From positions 1 through 24,641 of the IMG/VR virus record IMGVR_UViG_3300032242_000846: a DNA stretch of 24,641 bases. One strand, given 5' to 3'. Shown piece after piece: positions 2,496 to 9,500 of this stretch; within the stretch, counting starts at the first letter, position 1; each line of letters starts with the position of its first letter. The notes below the pieces were generated by a model. It was not told where the DNA came from. It saw only the letters and a program-made list of their open reading frames with translations, and made no database searches. This DNA comes from a virus. The position numbers and the translations under genes were made by a program.

Positions 2496-3109
2496 AAAAG
2501 ATATGCCCTACGCTTAAGTCTGATAGGGCTTCTTCTATTGCTGAACTTATAAATTCAGTATGTCCTAAATATGGTATCAATACCTCAGTTAGGCTGCACG
2601 CTTTCTTAGCTCAGATAGCTCACGAGAGCGGCGAATTCTCAATTAAGACAGAAAGTATGAATTATTCTACCCCAGAAAGAATAGTGGCTATATGGCCATC
2701 AAGATTTAATTTGACAGGAGAGGGTAAGCTAAATGCTCACGATTATATCAAAAATGCAGCTAAATTAGGTAATGAGGTATATGCAAATAGAATGGGCAAT
2801 GGTGCTCCTGAAACAGGAGATGGTTATAGATATAGAGGTGGAGGATTTTTGCAATTAACAGGCAAGGAATCATATCAGCATTATGCTGACTACATAAAGA
2901 AAGAGGTAGGAGAAACTGCTGACCTAGTAAGAGGTACTGATGAGTATGCCTTAGATTCAGCTTGTTGGGAATATGTGATTGACAAGAAGTTACTTGATGA
3001 ATCAGATGCAAGAGATTTTGTTACTATCACCAAAAAAATTAATGGTGGCACAATAGGTCTTACAGAAAGATTGAAATATTACAAACTAGCCCAACAAATA
3101 ATAATCTAA
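2474..3109 (+). CDS. Endolysin, glycoside hydrolase family 19 (chitinase-like muramidase)
   Basis: The 211-residue protein matches phage GH19 endolysins, which cut the glycan chain of peptidoglycan to release progeny. The catalytic region is seen at residues 49-60 (AHESGEFSIKTE), where E51 and E60 fit the two acid residues of the family. It is followed by SMNYSTPERI and the substrate-cleft motif YRGGGFLQLTGKESY near residue 120. There is no signal peptide or separate binding domain, so export should depend on the holin-like protein encoded just upstream. The ATG at 2474 gives a normal length for the family, and the stop shares one base with the next ATG. Confidence 0.9.
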   Translation: MLTNDQLKKICPTLKSDRASSIAELINSVCPKYGINTSVRLHAFLAQIAHESGEFSIKTESMNYSTPERIVAIWPSRFNLTGEGKLNAHDYIKNAAKLGNEVYANRMGNGAPETGDGYRYRGGGFLQLTGKESYQHYADYIKKEVGETADLVRGTDEYALDSACWEYVIDKKLLDESDARDFVTITKKINGGTIGLTERLKYYKLAQQIII

Positions 3110-3411
3110 TGGACACACTATCCTACATCAAAGAATCCCCCTACATTAAGGAGGTTCAATACTCAGTTTACACTATTTCTAAAATAGAAAGCAACGATAA
3201 CATTGATGCTATTGAGGCAGATGTAATTGAGAAAGGTTTATTCATTGGTGGTATAGCTAATCCCATAAGAGTACAAAAGGTTGATTCAATTAATGATTTA
3301 GCCTATGCTTATTATAGGGAATCTTTAGTTGGCAATACCTTTGACCTTCCTACCAAGGACTTTGTAAATATGTTCAAGATTGTTTACGAGCAGGCTGTAA
3401 AAAAAATCTAA
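3109..3411 (+). CDS. Hypothetical 100-residue protein following endolysin
   Basis: The gene starts on the last base of the endolysin stop (TAATG), so it is probably co-translated. The product is soluble, with no signal peptide or membrane segment. It has a mixed alpha/beta composition with aromatic residues (YIKESPYIKEVQYSVY) and a helical C-terminus. I do not recognise it. It is the last intact gene before the disrupted exonuclease start. Confidence 0.6.
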   Translation: MDTLSYIKESPYIKEVQYSVYTISKIESNDNIDAIEADVIEKGLFIGGIANPIRVQKVDSINDLAYAYYRESLVGNTFDLPTKDFVNMFKIVYEQAVKKI

Positions 3412-3425
3412 CCAATACCACACAA

Positions 3426-3515
3426 ATGAAAAAAGAACTAGGCGTTACTAAACGTAGAAGACTCTTTTTTGACATTTTTTTTGACAATTTTCAAAAAGTT
3501 AACTATCTTTGGTAA
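3426..3515 (+). pseudogene. Orphaned 5' fragment of the exonuclease gene, cut off by a homing-endonuclease insertion
   Basis: A 29-codon frame begins MKKELGVTKRRRLFFDI and then runs into unrelated residues and a stop. The intact exonuclease at 3978 begins MQKSNLVTKRKRLFFDCE, so 11 of the first 17 positions are identical. The likeness ends exactly at the catalytic Asp codon (3471-3473 against 4023-4025). DNA identity is lower because many codons are synonymous (GTTACTAAACGT against GTAACCAAGCGT), so the copies have diverged. Immediately after the break lies a promoter for the HNH gene. I read this as the original start of the exonuclease gene, separated from its body by insertion of the HNH cassette. 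Confidence 0.75.
3480..3511 (+). promoter_or_regulatory. Bacteroidetes-type promoter of the HNH gene
   Basis: TTTG (3480-3483) is followed after 20 nt by TATCTTTG (3504-3511), matching the -33 TTTG and -7 TAnnTTTG consensus of Bacteroidetes sigma factors. The HNH ATG at 3527 lies 15 nt beyond the -7 box. The promoter begins right where homology of the broken exonuclease fragment ends, so it belongs to the inserted cassette. Confidence 0.75.
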
Positions 3516-3526
3516 AATCAAAAAAT

Positions 3527-4009
3527 ATGAAAAAAATATTCTTTTTACCCAAGTATTACACTATTGAAATTGAAATTAAAACAGGAATAGTTGAAATTTT
3601 TTCTAGTTCTAAGCACGCAAAAGGTAGAAAATTAAATCAAAAAATAAATCATAAAGGATATTTAGTAGTTTACATGAATGGTAAAACGCATTTAATTCAT
3701 TCTTTGGTAGCTAATTTTATTTTGGGAAAAAGACCTCATGGCTTATGTGTTAACCATATTGATGGGAATAAATTAAATAACTCTCCATCTAACTTAGAGT
3801 ATGTAACATTATCTGAAAATACAAAGCACTCTATAAGAACTGGATTACATGTATGTAATAGACCTGATAAAATGGGTATGTATATTGATGGTAGATGTAG
3901 CGACATTGTTAAGTATAAAAAAGATTGGTATTTGAAGAATAGGGAAAGAATATTAATAAAAGAAAAAGAAAAATACAATGCAAAAAAGCAATTTGGTAAC
4001 CAAGCGTAA
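3527..4009 (+). CDS. HNH homing endonuclease inserted at the exonuclease gene
   Basis: This 160-residue protein carries an HNH_3-type core (about residues 60-105): HSLVANFILGKRP, then VNHIDGNKLNNSPSNLEYVT and ENTKHS. The His-Asn-His metal-finger residues are visible in HIDGNKLNNSPSNLE. An N-terminal NUMOD4-like stretch and a basic C-terminus precede its stop. Such free-standing endonucleases cut conserved phage genes and spread by repair. I prefer the ATG at 3527 over the in-frame TTG at 3509, because the TTG lies inside the -7 promoter box. The last 32 bases overlap the exonuclease start, so the cassette supplies the new start of the gene it interrupts. Confidence 0.85.
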   Translation: MKKIFFLPKYYTIEIEIKTGIVEIFSSSKHAKGRKLNQKINHKGYLVVYMNGKTHLIHSLVANFILGKRPHGLCVNHIDGNKLNNSPSNLEYVTLSENTKHSIRTGLHVCNRPDKMGMYIDGRCSDIVKYKKDWYLKNRERILIKEKEKYNAKKQFGNQA

Positions 4010-4724
4010 GAGATTGTTTTTTGACTGCGAAGTCAGTGCCAACATAGGATTCTTTTGGCAATCTGGATATAAGCTTTCTATCGGACCGCAAAACATTATA
4101 AAAGAAAGGGCAATCATTTGCATCTGTTATAAGTGGGAGGATGAGAAACAGGTTCACGAATTACATTGGGATGCAAAACAAAATGATAAGAAATTGCTTG
4201 AGGCTTTTATTAAGATAGCAAATTCAGCTGATGAAATGGTAGGGCATAATGGGGACAGATTTGATTTGTCTTGGATTAGAACAAGATGTTTATTTCACGG
4301 AATAGAAATGTTTCCTACCTACACTACCATAGATACCCTAAAGATAGCTCGTTCTAAATTCAAATTTAATTCCAACAAACTTAATTACATAGCTCAGTTC
4401 TTAGGCATAGGCCAAAAGATTAAAACCGAATATGACCTATGGAAGGATATCACTCTATACAAGAGTAAGCCAGCTATGGATAAGATGATTAAGTATTGTA
4501 TTATGGATGTTATTCTTTTGGAGAAGGTTTACAAGGCATTAAGTCCTCATATAGCACCTAAGACTCATTATGGGGTAGTATTTGGTGGCGATAGAGGAAC
4601 CTGCCCTGAATGTGGTTCTGAAGATTTAGTAAGATATTGTGTAAGAGTATCAGCCTCTGGAATTAAGAAGGTTCAATTAAAGTGTAAGACCTGTAATAAA
4701 ATGCATACAAAAACAGACAAATAA
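3978..4724 (+). CDS. DEDDy-type 3'-5' exonuclease (RNase H-like fold) with C-terminal zinc ribbon
   Basis: This 248-residue protein shows the exonuclease motifs: FFDCE (D16, E18), GHNGDRFD (N91, D96) and the YxxxD motif YCIMD (Y173, D177). Those make it a DEDDy proofreading-type nuclease that removes nucleotides from DNA 3' ends. Residues 205-242 hold a likely zinc ribbon with two Cys pairs (CPECG at 209/212, CKTC at 236/239). No polymerase domain is attached, so it acts alone, in repair or replication. Its first codons overlap the HNH gene; an older copy of its start remains at 3426. The family in Bacteroidetes phages usually begins with K-R-L-F-F-D, which supports this start. Confidence 0.85.
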   Translation: MQKSNLVTKRKRLFFDCEVSANIGFFWQSGYKLSIGPQNIIKERAIICICYKWEDEKQVHELHWDAKQNDKKLLEAFIKIANSADEMVGHNGDRFDLSWIRTRCLFHGIEMFPTYTTIDTLKIARSKFKFNSNKLNYIAQFLGIGQKIKTEYDLWKDITLYKSKPAMDKMIKYCIMDVILLEKVYKALSPHIAPKTHYGVVFGGDRGTCPECGSEDLVRYCVRVSASGIKKVQLKCKTCNKMHTKTDK

Positions 4725-4727
4725 CCT

Positions 4728-4928
4728 ATGAAAGAAGAAGAAAAATCAATAGATTTAGTTCCTACGAATAGCATTTATTTTAAATTAGCTAATGAAGTTA
4801 ATCCAATAATGAAAATAAGTAATGGTAAATTCTATTGGAAAGATGAAGAAATAGATGACATACACAATGTTTATGAAAGATTTAATGAATGGCTAACCAA
4901 ACCTATAACCAAAACAAATAACCTATGA
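4728..4928 (+). CDS. Small hypothetical protein
   Basis: The 66-residue product is acidic and soluble, with a Glu/Lys-rich start and a helical region ending in WLTKPITKTNNL. No family is recognised. The TGA overlaps the next ATG (ATGA), and the last codons lie in the repeated leader shared with its neighbours. It sits in a run of four tiny genes with the same leader. Confidence 0.55.
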   Translation: MKEEEKSIDLVPTNSIYFKLANEVNPIMKISNGKFYWKDEEIDDIHNVYERFNEWLTKPITKTNNL

Positions 4929-5158
4929 AACTTGAAGAAGCAGAACAAAAAGCACTTACTATTAAATGGCAGATAAACACTTGCCATCAAGGAGAAAGTT
5001 GTTGGTGTAGAACTATTAAACCTATTGAACCTATACTTTTTGATGATGGGAATAGTCAAGATGAATATTGGATAGTTGGTAGTGGAGAATTGCATAAGGA
5101 AATTGCTGAATATTTTGTTCAGCTTCACAATCAAAAAATAGATAACCAAAACAAATAA
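4925..5158 (+). CDS. Small hypothetical protein with Cys/His/Trp cluster
   Basis: The 77-residue product contains TCHQGESCWCRTIKP near residues 18-32, with three Cys and one His in 9 residues, which could bind a metal. A short acidic loop and a helical end follow (EYFVQLHNQKIDNQNK). No family is recognised. It starts by ATGA overlap with the preceding gene, and its final codons are encoded in the repeated leader of the next gene. Confidence 0.55.
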   Translation: MKLEEAEQKALTIKWQINTCHQGESCWCRTIKPIEPILFDDGNSQDEYWIVGSGELHKEIAEYFVQLHNQKIDNQNK

Positions 5159-5161
5159 CCT

Positions 5162-5368
5162 ATGAACAAAAAAGTACAATTAAATAAAATACAAATAGGA
5201 GTTTTTACAAATAATGTTTATGATATAGTTGGAATAGTTTTGTTTAAAAGATTATATGGAATTATAATAAATACAAATTATCCATTTGTTTATAAAAAAT
5301 ATCAAAAAGTAGATTTACCATTATATCATTTACCAACTGATATAAATCCACAATTTTATAAAAAATAA
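5162..5368 (+). CDS. Small hypothetical protein, Lys/Tyr/Ile-rich
   Basis: The 68-residue basic product looks beta-rich (VYDIVGIVLFKRLYGIIINTNYPF) with no signal peptide or clear membrane segment. Codon use is very AT-rich, more so than the exonuclease upstream. It is preceded by the shared leader and is not recognised. Confidence 0.5.
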   Translation: MNKKVQLNKIQIGVFTNNVYDIVGIVLFKRLYGIIINTNYPFVYKKYQKVDLPLYHLPTDINPQFYKK

Positions 5369-8879: not shown

Positions 8880-9500
8880 TTAATCTTGTTTAAATATAGC
8901 TGATTGTATATCAATTCCTTTTAGTAATCTTCTCCTTATCTTAGATTGACTTACTCCTGAAATCTTAGACCATTCAGCTATTGTCTTTTTATCTCCATTA
9001 AATGTTACATAAAAGCTATTTGTTTTATTATTATGTTGCTCTGAAATTTTTATGTATCTGCAGTTTGATGGTTCATAATTTCTATTTACATCTATTCTAT
9101 CTATAGTTAATGATTGCTTATATCCATTATTAACAGACCAATCGTAGAAGTTTTTGAAATTATTTTTCCATTCATCACACACTGATATACCTCTGCCCCC
9201 ATAATTTTTATATTCCTTGTTGCTTTTTATATAGCATCTATTTTTAATAGAAAGCCATTTAATATATAAAGGGTGCTTTGATAAGCCATGTACTTTATTC
9301 TTTTCAGCAAGCAATCTACTTTGCTCGCATCCGCAAGAAGTTGTTATACCTGAAGATACCGAACTAAATCTTATCTCTTTTATATTGCCACAATCGCATT
9401 TGAATAGTCCTTTACGGCATCTTCCGCTTTTGTATTCTATAAAAAGCTCGTCATTAATGACGGTTAGTTTATTGTATTTTCTACCTATCAAAGCACCCAT
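8880..9500 (-). CDS. HNH/AP2-type homing endonuclease with N-terminal Cys cluster
   Basis: The 206-residue protein has an N-terminal zinc-binding-like segment (FKCDCGN ... TSCGCE, residues 33-58), then the phage HNH/AP2-family body: HGLSKHPLYIKWLSIKNRCY, KNYGGRGISVCDEW, FYDWSVNNGY, and IDRIDVNRNYEPSNCRYI with the N-x-x-P-x-N-C core. The C-terminus has a helix-turn-helix-like part (TIAEWSKISGVSQSKIRRRL) for DNA binding. It is free-standing, sits between the SSB-like gene and the tRNA-like gene, and has its own promoter with the same -7 box and spacing as the other HNH gene. Confidence 0.82.
   Translation of the reverse strand: MGALIGRKYNKLTVINDELFIEYKSGRCRKGLFKCDCGNIKEIRFSSVSSGITTSCGCEQSRLLAEKNKVHGLSKHPLYIKWLSIKNRCYIKSNKEYKNYGGRGISVCDEWKNNFKNFYDWSVNNGYKQSLTIDRIDVNRNYEPSNCRYIKISEQHNNKTNSFYVTFNGDKKTIAEWSKISGVSQSKIRRRLLKGIDIQSAIFKQD

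Follow-up and report, generated by a model that had tools for sequence, protein, structure and literature searches.

The window is a 24.6-kb fragment of an IMG/VR virus, and the phages with which it was compared are uncultivated and metagenomic. On its plus strand it carries a live exonuclease gene of 248 aa (3978..4724), identified as a DEDD-type DNA polymerase exonuclease subunit by its match to PHROG 403 (E=1e-55). The protein also matched the Pfam families RNase_H_2 and DNA_pol_B_exo2, and its profile matched the exonuclease domains of family B DNA polymerases weakly; a phmmer search against the PDB gave no match. In an alignment of 14 relatives, D16 and E18 (the D-x-E motif), D96 and Y173-D177 were invariant. 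The live copy has its own in-frame ATG and a full set of exonuclease motifs, and its D-x-E codons are GAC TGC GAA (4023..4031), with Cys as the middle residue where the closest relative, L001, has Ile. Among phage reference genomes, relatives of the exonuclease were found only in Flavobacterium phages (53% identity), and HNH matches were weak where followed up. The sole match in bacterial genomes, a Planctomycetales contig (L270) carrying neither exonuclease nor HNH gene, was rejected as a chance match.

Immediately upstream lies an HNH endonuclease gene of 160 aa (3527..4009, plus strand) related to I-HmuI (Pfam HNH_3, E=5e-11; PDB 1u3e_M, E=1.5e-6). Its motif NHxDGxK..N..NLE, with the conserved His and Asn, is kept in six relatives, and the dN/dS of 0.10-0.25 in the eight relative pairs with a defined value indicates purifying selection. 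An AlphaFold model of the HNH protein reached a pLDDT of 62, too uncertain for a structure search. Conservation and a consensus scan predicted a cassette promoter of the Bacteroidetes type (3480..3511, plus strand), in which TTTG (3480-3483) and TATCTTTG (3504-3511) are separated by a 20-nt spacer. The element TAnnTTTG, which we take to be the Bacteroidetes -7 box, was present upstream of the HNH ATG in 20/24 HNH loci, at equal distance in most of them, versus 2/96 HNH-less exonuclease starts. An earlier note had described a promoter and an HNH gene between two exonuclease N-termini, and this conservation backs the predicted promoter.

The 3′ end of the HNH gene, including its stop codon, doubles as the exonuclease start in the +1 frame; the overlap is exactly 32 nt (3978..4009, plus strand), as had been noted before. 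Overlaps of 26-53 nt in the same relative frame occur in 23/25 loci carrying the HNH gene (HNH+ loci), and those of the two most distant loci measure 4 and 8 nt. Because the frames overlap, deletion of the HNH 3′ end would also take away the exonuclease start. The most diverged HNH relatives (L089 and L165/L088, 42-54% identity) also sit at exonuclease starts, with overlaps of 8 and 4 nt, respectively, and possibly represent an earlier stage before the overlap grew.

The displaced 5′ end at position 3426

Besides the live start at 3978, the window contains a second, dead exonuclease N-terminus (3426..3476, plus strand), consisting of the native first 17 codons (MKKELGVTKRRRLFFDI) and cut inside the catalytic D-x-E motif. 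It runs from the ATG at 3426 to the Ile codon at 3474-3476, after which the frame continues to a TAA at 3513-3515. Positions 3403-3476 align to 4978-5051 of L001 with 96% identity (E=1e-28), and all 51 bases of the dead copy equal the L001 exonuclease start, so that the existence of two N-termini, already proposed from the window alone, stands far beyond chance. With the live copy of the window itself, the dead copy shares only 31/51 bases.

L001 lacks the HNH gene, is the sister of the window on the tree, and is 89% identical to it over the exonuclease body and 90% over the terminase region. Its exonuclease is single and uninterrupted and continues GAAGTTTCA where the dead copy breaks off, the sequence after the break point being GAAGTTTCAGCA. 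A single intact start resembling the 3426 copy is what the earlier note had predicted for a relative without the HNH gene. Upstream of the dead copy, a gene of unknown function (100 aa; 3109..3411, plus strand) has its counterpart directly 5′ of the exonuclease in the HNH-less L065, and window positions 3112-3475 align without a break to L065 1752-2111, covering both this gene and the exonuclease start. Together with the L001 match, this unbroken alignment indicates that 3426-3476, as judged from these comparisons, is the native 5′ end of the exonuclease gene and has not moved. Homology extends through Ile17 (GAC ATT), and the break therefore lies inside D-x-E. Thus, the earlier placement of the homology end at D-x-E was right, but the end does not precede the motif; it falls one codon past the catalytic Asp.

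In the region upstream of the exonuclease, including 3109-3411, the genes of the window and L001 are mostly unrelated, and the downstream DNA is about 90% identical. The border between the two parts of this mosaic falls at the exonuclease 5′ end.

Dead fragments, clean replacements and the supplied 5′ end

We compiled 184 distinct exonuclease loci, 25 with the HNH gene at the start and 159 without it; this sample is non-random, as part of it was retrieved by way of the HNH gene. Upstream exonuclease fragments were found in 3/25 HNH+ loci and in 0/159 HNH-less loci, and the fragments match exonuclease starts; a second upstream N-terminus in phages without the HNH gene would have spoken against the interpretation put forward earlier. 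The three loci are the window, L026 (the same contig as L169) and L171. The L026 fragment reads MMQTKRRRLFFD followed by TAA and ends after GAT, the L171 fragment reads MLITKRKRLYFDIE and ends after GACATTGAG, and that of the window ends after GACATT, placing the three breaks, all at the D-x-E codons, within about six bases of one another. The three belong to different exonuclease lineages with bodies about 70% identical, and the sequences after the break are unrelated in frame. The peptides of the live and dead starts are almost identical in each case but differ in codon use, with matching codons at 7/11, 5/10 and 3/11 of the shared residues. The alignment of L171 with its intact, HNH-less relative L191 falls into two blocks, one spanning the upstream gene and the dead start and the other beginning at the live start, and 38 L191 bases are therefore matched twice.

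The other 22/25 HNH+ loci have no recognisable dead fragment, and clean replacement is thus the commoner state. In the HNH+ clade with the most members, homology to HNH-less relatives covers the upstream gene as far as its last codons, where the cassette begins, and then resumes at the exonuclease start with no fragment in between (L070/L038, L173/L038 and L175/L025). We read clean replacement as the outcome when recombination on the left side uses the upstream gene. The left end of the cassette in L171, L082/L162 and L186 contains, about 60 bases 5′ of the HNH gene, a shared remnant like GACATTGAGGTAAAATCC that can be translated as exonuclease FDIEV. The L171 remnant follows closely 3′ of the dead copy, and the cassette may therefore carry a fossil of an earlier target site.

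The replacement 5′ end supplied by the cassette extends over 3978..4060 (plus strand), its right limit being approximate, with 71% identity to L001 compared with 80-96% over the following gene. By segments, the first 25 codons compared show 71% identity, the next 100 show 87-96% and those further on 80-89%. To compare loci, we used 48 bases around the catalytic Asp and an HNH-less partner with at least 80% body identity. By this measure the live 5′ end of the window is 0.69 identical to L001 and the body 0.89; the replacement end is thus more diverged from L001 than the native end, which is preserved in the dead copy at 51/51 bases. In 15 HNH+ loci, the 5′ end was 0.18 (about 18 points) below body identity with the nearest HNH-less relative, and in 32 HNH-less control pairs of matched body identity the drop was 0.00 (p about 1e-6, a guide only, as the rows are related). 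The lower identity of the 5′ end indicates that insertion brought in a foreign 5′ end, and the earlier suggestion that the cassette carries its own version of this end is borne out by these 15 loci.

Beyond the insertions themselves, tight linkage between the HNH gene and the exonuclease 5′ end was unsupported. Among HNH+ loci the 5′ end tracked the HNH gene no more closely than it tracked the exonuclease body (partial r 0.15, p=0.07), and L173 and L058 have identical HNH genes and exonuclease 5′ ends of 0.867 identity. This weak linkage indicates that the 5′ end has been reshuffled after insertion and is no permanently linked cargo; later recombination erodes the association. Divergence of the supplied end probably prevents recombination with the dead copy, and it may also protect from cutting. 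The middle residue of D-x-E was other than Ile in 7/14 HNH+ clusters versus 5/41 HNH-less clusters (p=0.007, post hoc), an excess that would be expected if the supplied 5′ end were also cut-resistant.

Site dedication and a model of replacement

HNH loci were gathered by a location-blind pattern scan together with profile and exonuclease searches; a variant scan of the HNH pattern with AGY codons gave no match. All 45/45 fetched loci with HNH relatives of at least 55% identity over 100+ aa, some of them repeat fetches of one contig, had the gene at an exonuclease start, versus 0/70 of the shorter or weaker matches and 2/7 of the intermediate ones. On the tree of exonuclease bodies, the presence of the HNH gene required 15 changes, 11 of which were forced by well-supported branches. 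In L170/L180 and L173/L058, the HNH gene and promoter are 98-100% identical, and the flanks mostly 82-95%. HNH distances and exonuclease-body distances were strongly correlated (r=0.91), indicating that much of the history was vertical or local.

We propose, with a probability of roughly 85%, that the locus carries a free-standing HNH homing element which is dedicated to the exonuclease D-x-E codons and which would replace the 5′ end that it destroys. The compared sequences show the insertion and its site, the dead fragments and the replacement 5′ end, as well as the conserved promoter motif and the reading-frame overlap; we infer that it is the HNH enzyme that makes the break. During co-infection, the enzyme would cut an HNH-less exonuclease gene near D-x-E and the carrier phage would serve as the repair template. 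On the right side, repair would proceed through exonuclease homology, so that the carrier's diverged 5′ end would be copied along with the HNH gene. On the left side, resolution in the upstream gene would give a clean replacement, and resolution through short or no homology would leave the native 5′ end stranded and dead, the state seen in the window. One-sided repair that forms junctions at microhomology has been described for T4 intron homing (PMC2988022); repair of this type would account for the stranded fragments. The junction in the window, TTTTTTGACATT|TTTTTTGACAATTTTC, has this form, being a tandem near-repeat.

A stronger version of this proposal is that the cassette acts as a natural phage home-and-rescue drive, which would target an indispensable catalytic motif of a replication gene, carry a cut-resistant 5′ end and guard itself against deletion by the overlap. 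The altered middle residue of D-x-E gives this version post-hoc support, and we put it forward tentatively, at somewhat short of even odds.

Several other histories of the locus were weighed. If the HNH gene belonged to a self-splicing intron or another spliced element, splicing would connect ..GACATT with GAAGTC.., making the second N-terminus an incidental feature. The break does lie exactly between D-x-E codons, joining 3476 to 4029 would give an intact frame, and I-HmuI itself resides in a group I intron. However, no Rfam group I or II match was found in window 3100-4300 at a permissive setting or in L171, L026 and L082, and the 50 nt between the dead copy and the HNH ORF, which itself runs into the exonuclease, leave no room for a core. 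We rejected this reading on these two grounds; the in-frame live copy with its own ATG and full set of motifs, and the many HNH loci with no 5′ fragment to splice, also make it highly improbable. It is just as hard to credit that the 3426 fragment is no relic but a functional upstream ORF of 29 codons or a regulatory element for the HNH gene or exonuclease. Its intact stretch from the ATG to Ile17 is identical to the native start and its frame ends just 5′ of the HNH ATG, but such a fragment is missing in 22/25 HNH+ loci, the three fragments continue past the break in unrelated frames, and the remaining protein is absent.

Ordinary recombination with a phage bearing the HNH gene upstream of its exonuclease, with a passive nuclease and a dead copy left as a by-product of illegitimate recombination, would accord with the mosaic nature of phage genomes and the differing upstream genes of the window and L001, and plain homologous exchange could yield the clean replacements. 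We nevertheless consider it unlikely. The single break site in three lineages, the strict site dedication, the patchy distribution and HNH genes that are nearly identical where their flanks have diverged further all favour site-directed transfer, and the HNH gene is kept under purifying selection. The order of events could also be reversed, L001 having lost the cassette through recombination between the two N-termini. Excision between repeated 5′ ends is possible in principle, but such a crossover would place the live TGCGAAGTCAGTGCC after the dead start, where L001 instead has ATTGAAGTTTCAGCA, and to either side of D-x-E L001 is distinct from the live copy. This misfit led us to reject an excision origin of L001 as very improbable, and the 159 HNH-less loci with a single start argue that the single start is the older state. 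Replacement by a dedicated homing element thus remains our preferred reading.

Relation to known elements and other features of the window

I-HmuI targets a DNA-polymerase function. This enzyme (PDB 1u3e), from the DNA polymerase intron of phage SPO1, has a related HNH domain, but it is intron-encoded, whereas the HNH gene of the window is free-standing. In Allomyces and Glomus mitochondria, mobile endonuclease ORFs replace the C-terminus of atp6, atp9, cox2 or nad3 (PMC3630166). As in these elements, an endonuclease ORF sits in a conserved gene, the displaced end has a foreign duplicate and can itself persist as a relic, synonymous divergence is high and the hybrid gene would stay functional; in the window, L026 and L171 the endonuclease ORF lies between the displaced native end and the foreign in-frame replacement. 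The mitochondrial ORFs concern 3′ ends and are mostly of the LAGLIDADG or GIY-YIG type, whereas the phage cassette supplies a 5′ end with a start codon and has an HNH gene, its own promoter and overlapping frames. Fungal mitochondrial introns with N-terminal duplications (PMC7315562) likewise carry a diverged duplicate of part of the host gene, with subsequent exchange of gene fragments, but they are predicted introns, some spliced and some not, and no intron was detectable at the phage locus.

T4-like phages contain free-standing HNH and GIY-YIG homing endonucleases, Mob and Seg, which also adjoin or lie inside replication genes (PMC2988022). There, segG and others contain promoters of the next essential gene, which favours their retention, and mobE and mobA split genes; unlike the exonuclease, T4 split genes must work as two polypeptides. 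No case of a gene end being displaced and a replacement supplied is described in this review, from which the word stem 'duplicat' is absent. In the open-access literature, the scope of our search (subscription papers lay outside it), we found no report of a phage homing gene providing a substitute 5′ end. The synthetic home-and-rescue gene drives termed HomeR (PMC7968924) would share with the cassette the combination of a nuclease and a recoded piece of the essential target that restores function; HomeR is engineered with Cas9 in Drosophila, and the likeness is one of design only.

If the proposed replacement holds, a free-standing homing gene can have as its target the catalytic and best-conserved portion of a replication gene without destroying its carrier. 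The series of intact, inserted with fossil and cleaned states would allow the invasion and erosion of such elements to be studied, and a selfish nuclease overlapping the gene that it interrupts would be a ready natural example of genetic entanglement. For annotators, the first codons of these exonucleases may differ in ancestry from the rest of the gene.

Some further features of the window were observed. ACAAATAACCTATGA occurs at four successive gene starts (4717, 4914, 5151 and 5374), and its repeats bound three small ORFs (4728-5368) that are missing in the near relative L001, which looks like gain or loss of a repeat-bounded module. A second ORF resembling a homing endonuclease (8880-9500, minus strand; 206 aa, no Pfam match) adjoins an SSB-like gene. 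Upstream of the endolysin, overlapping lipoprotein-like and membrane-protein ORFs (1488-1826 and 1738-2160) are possibly a spanin pair.
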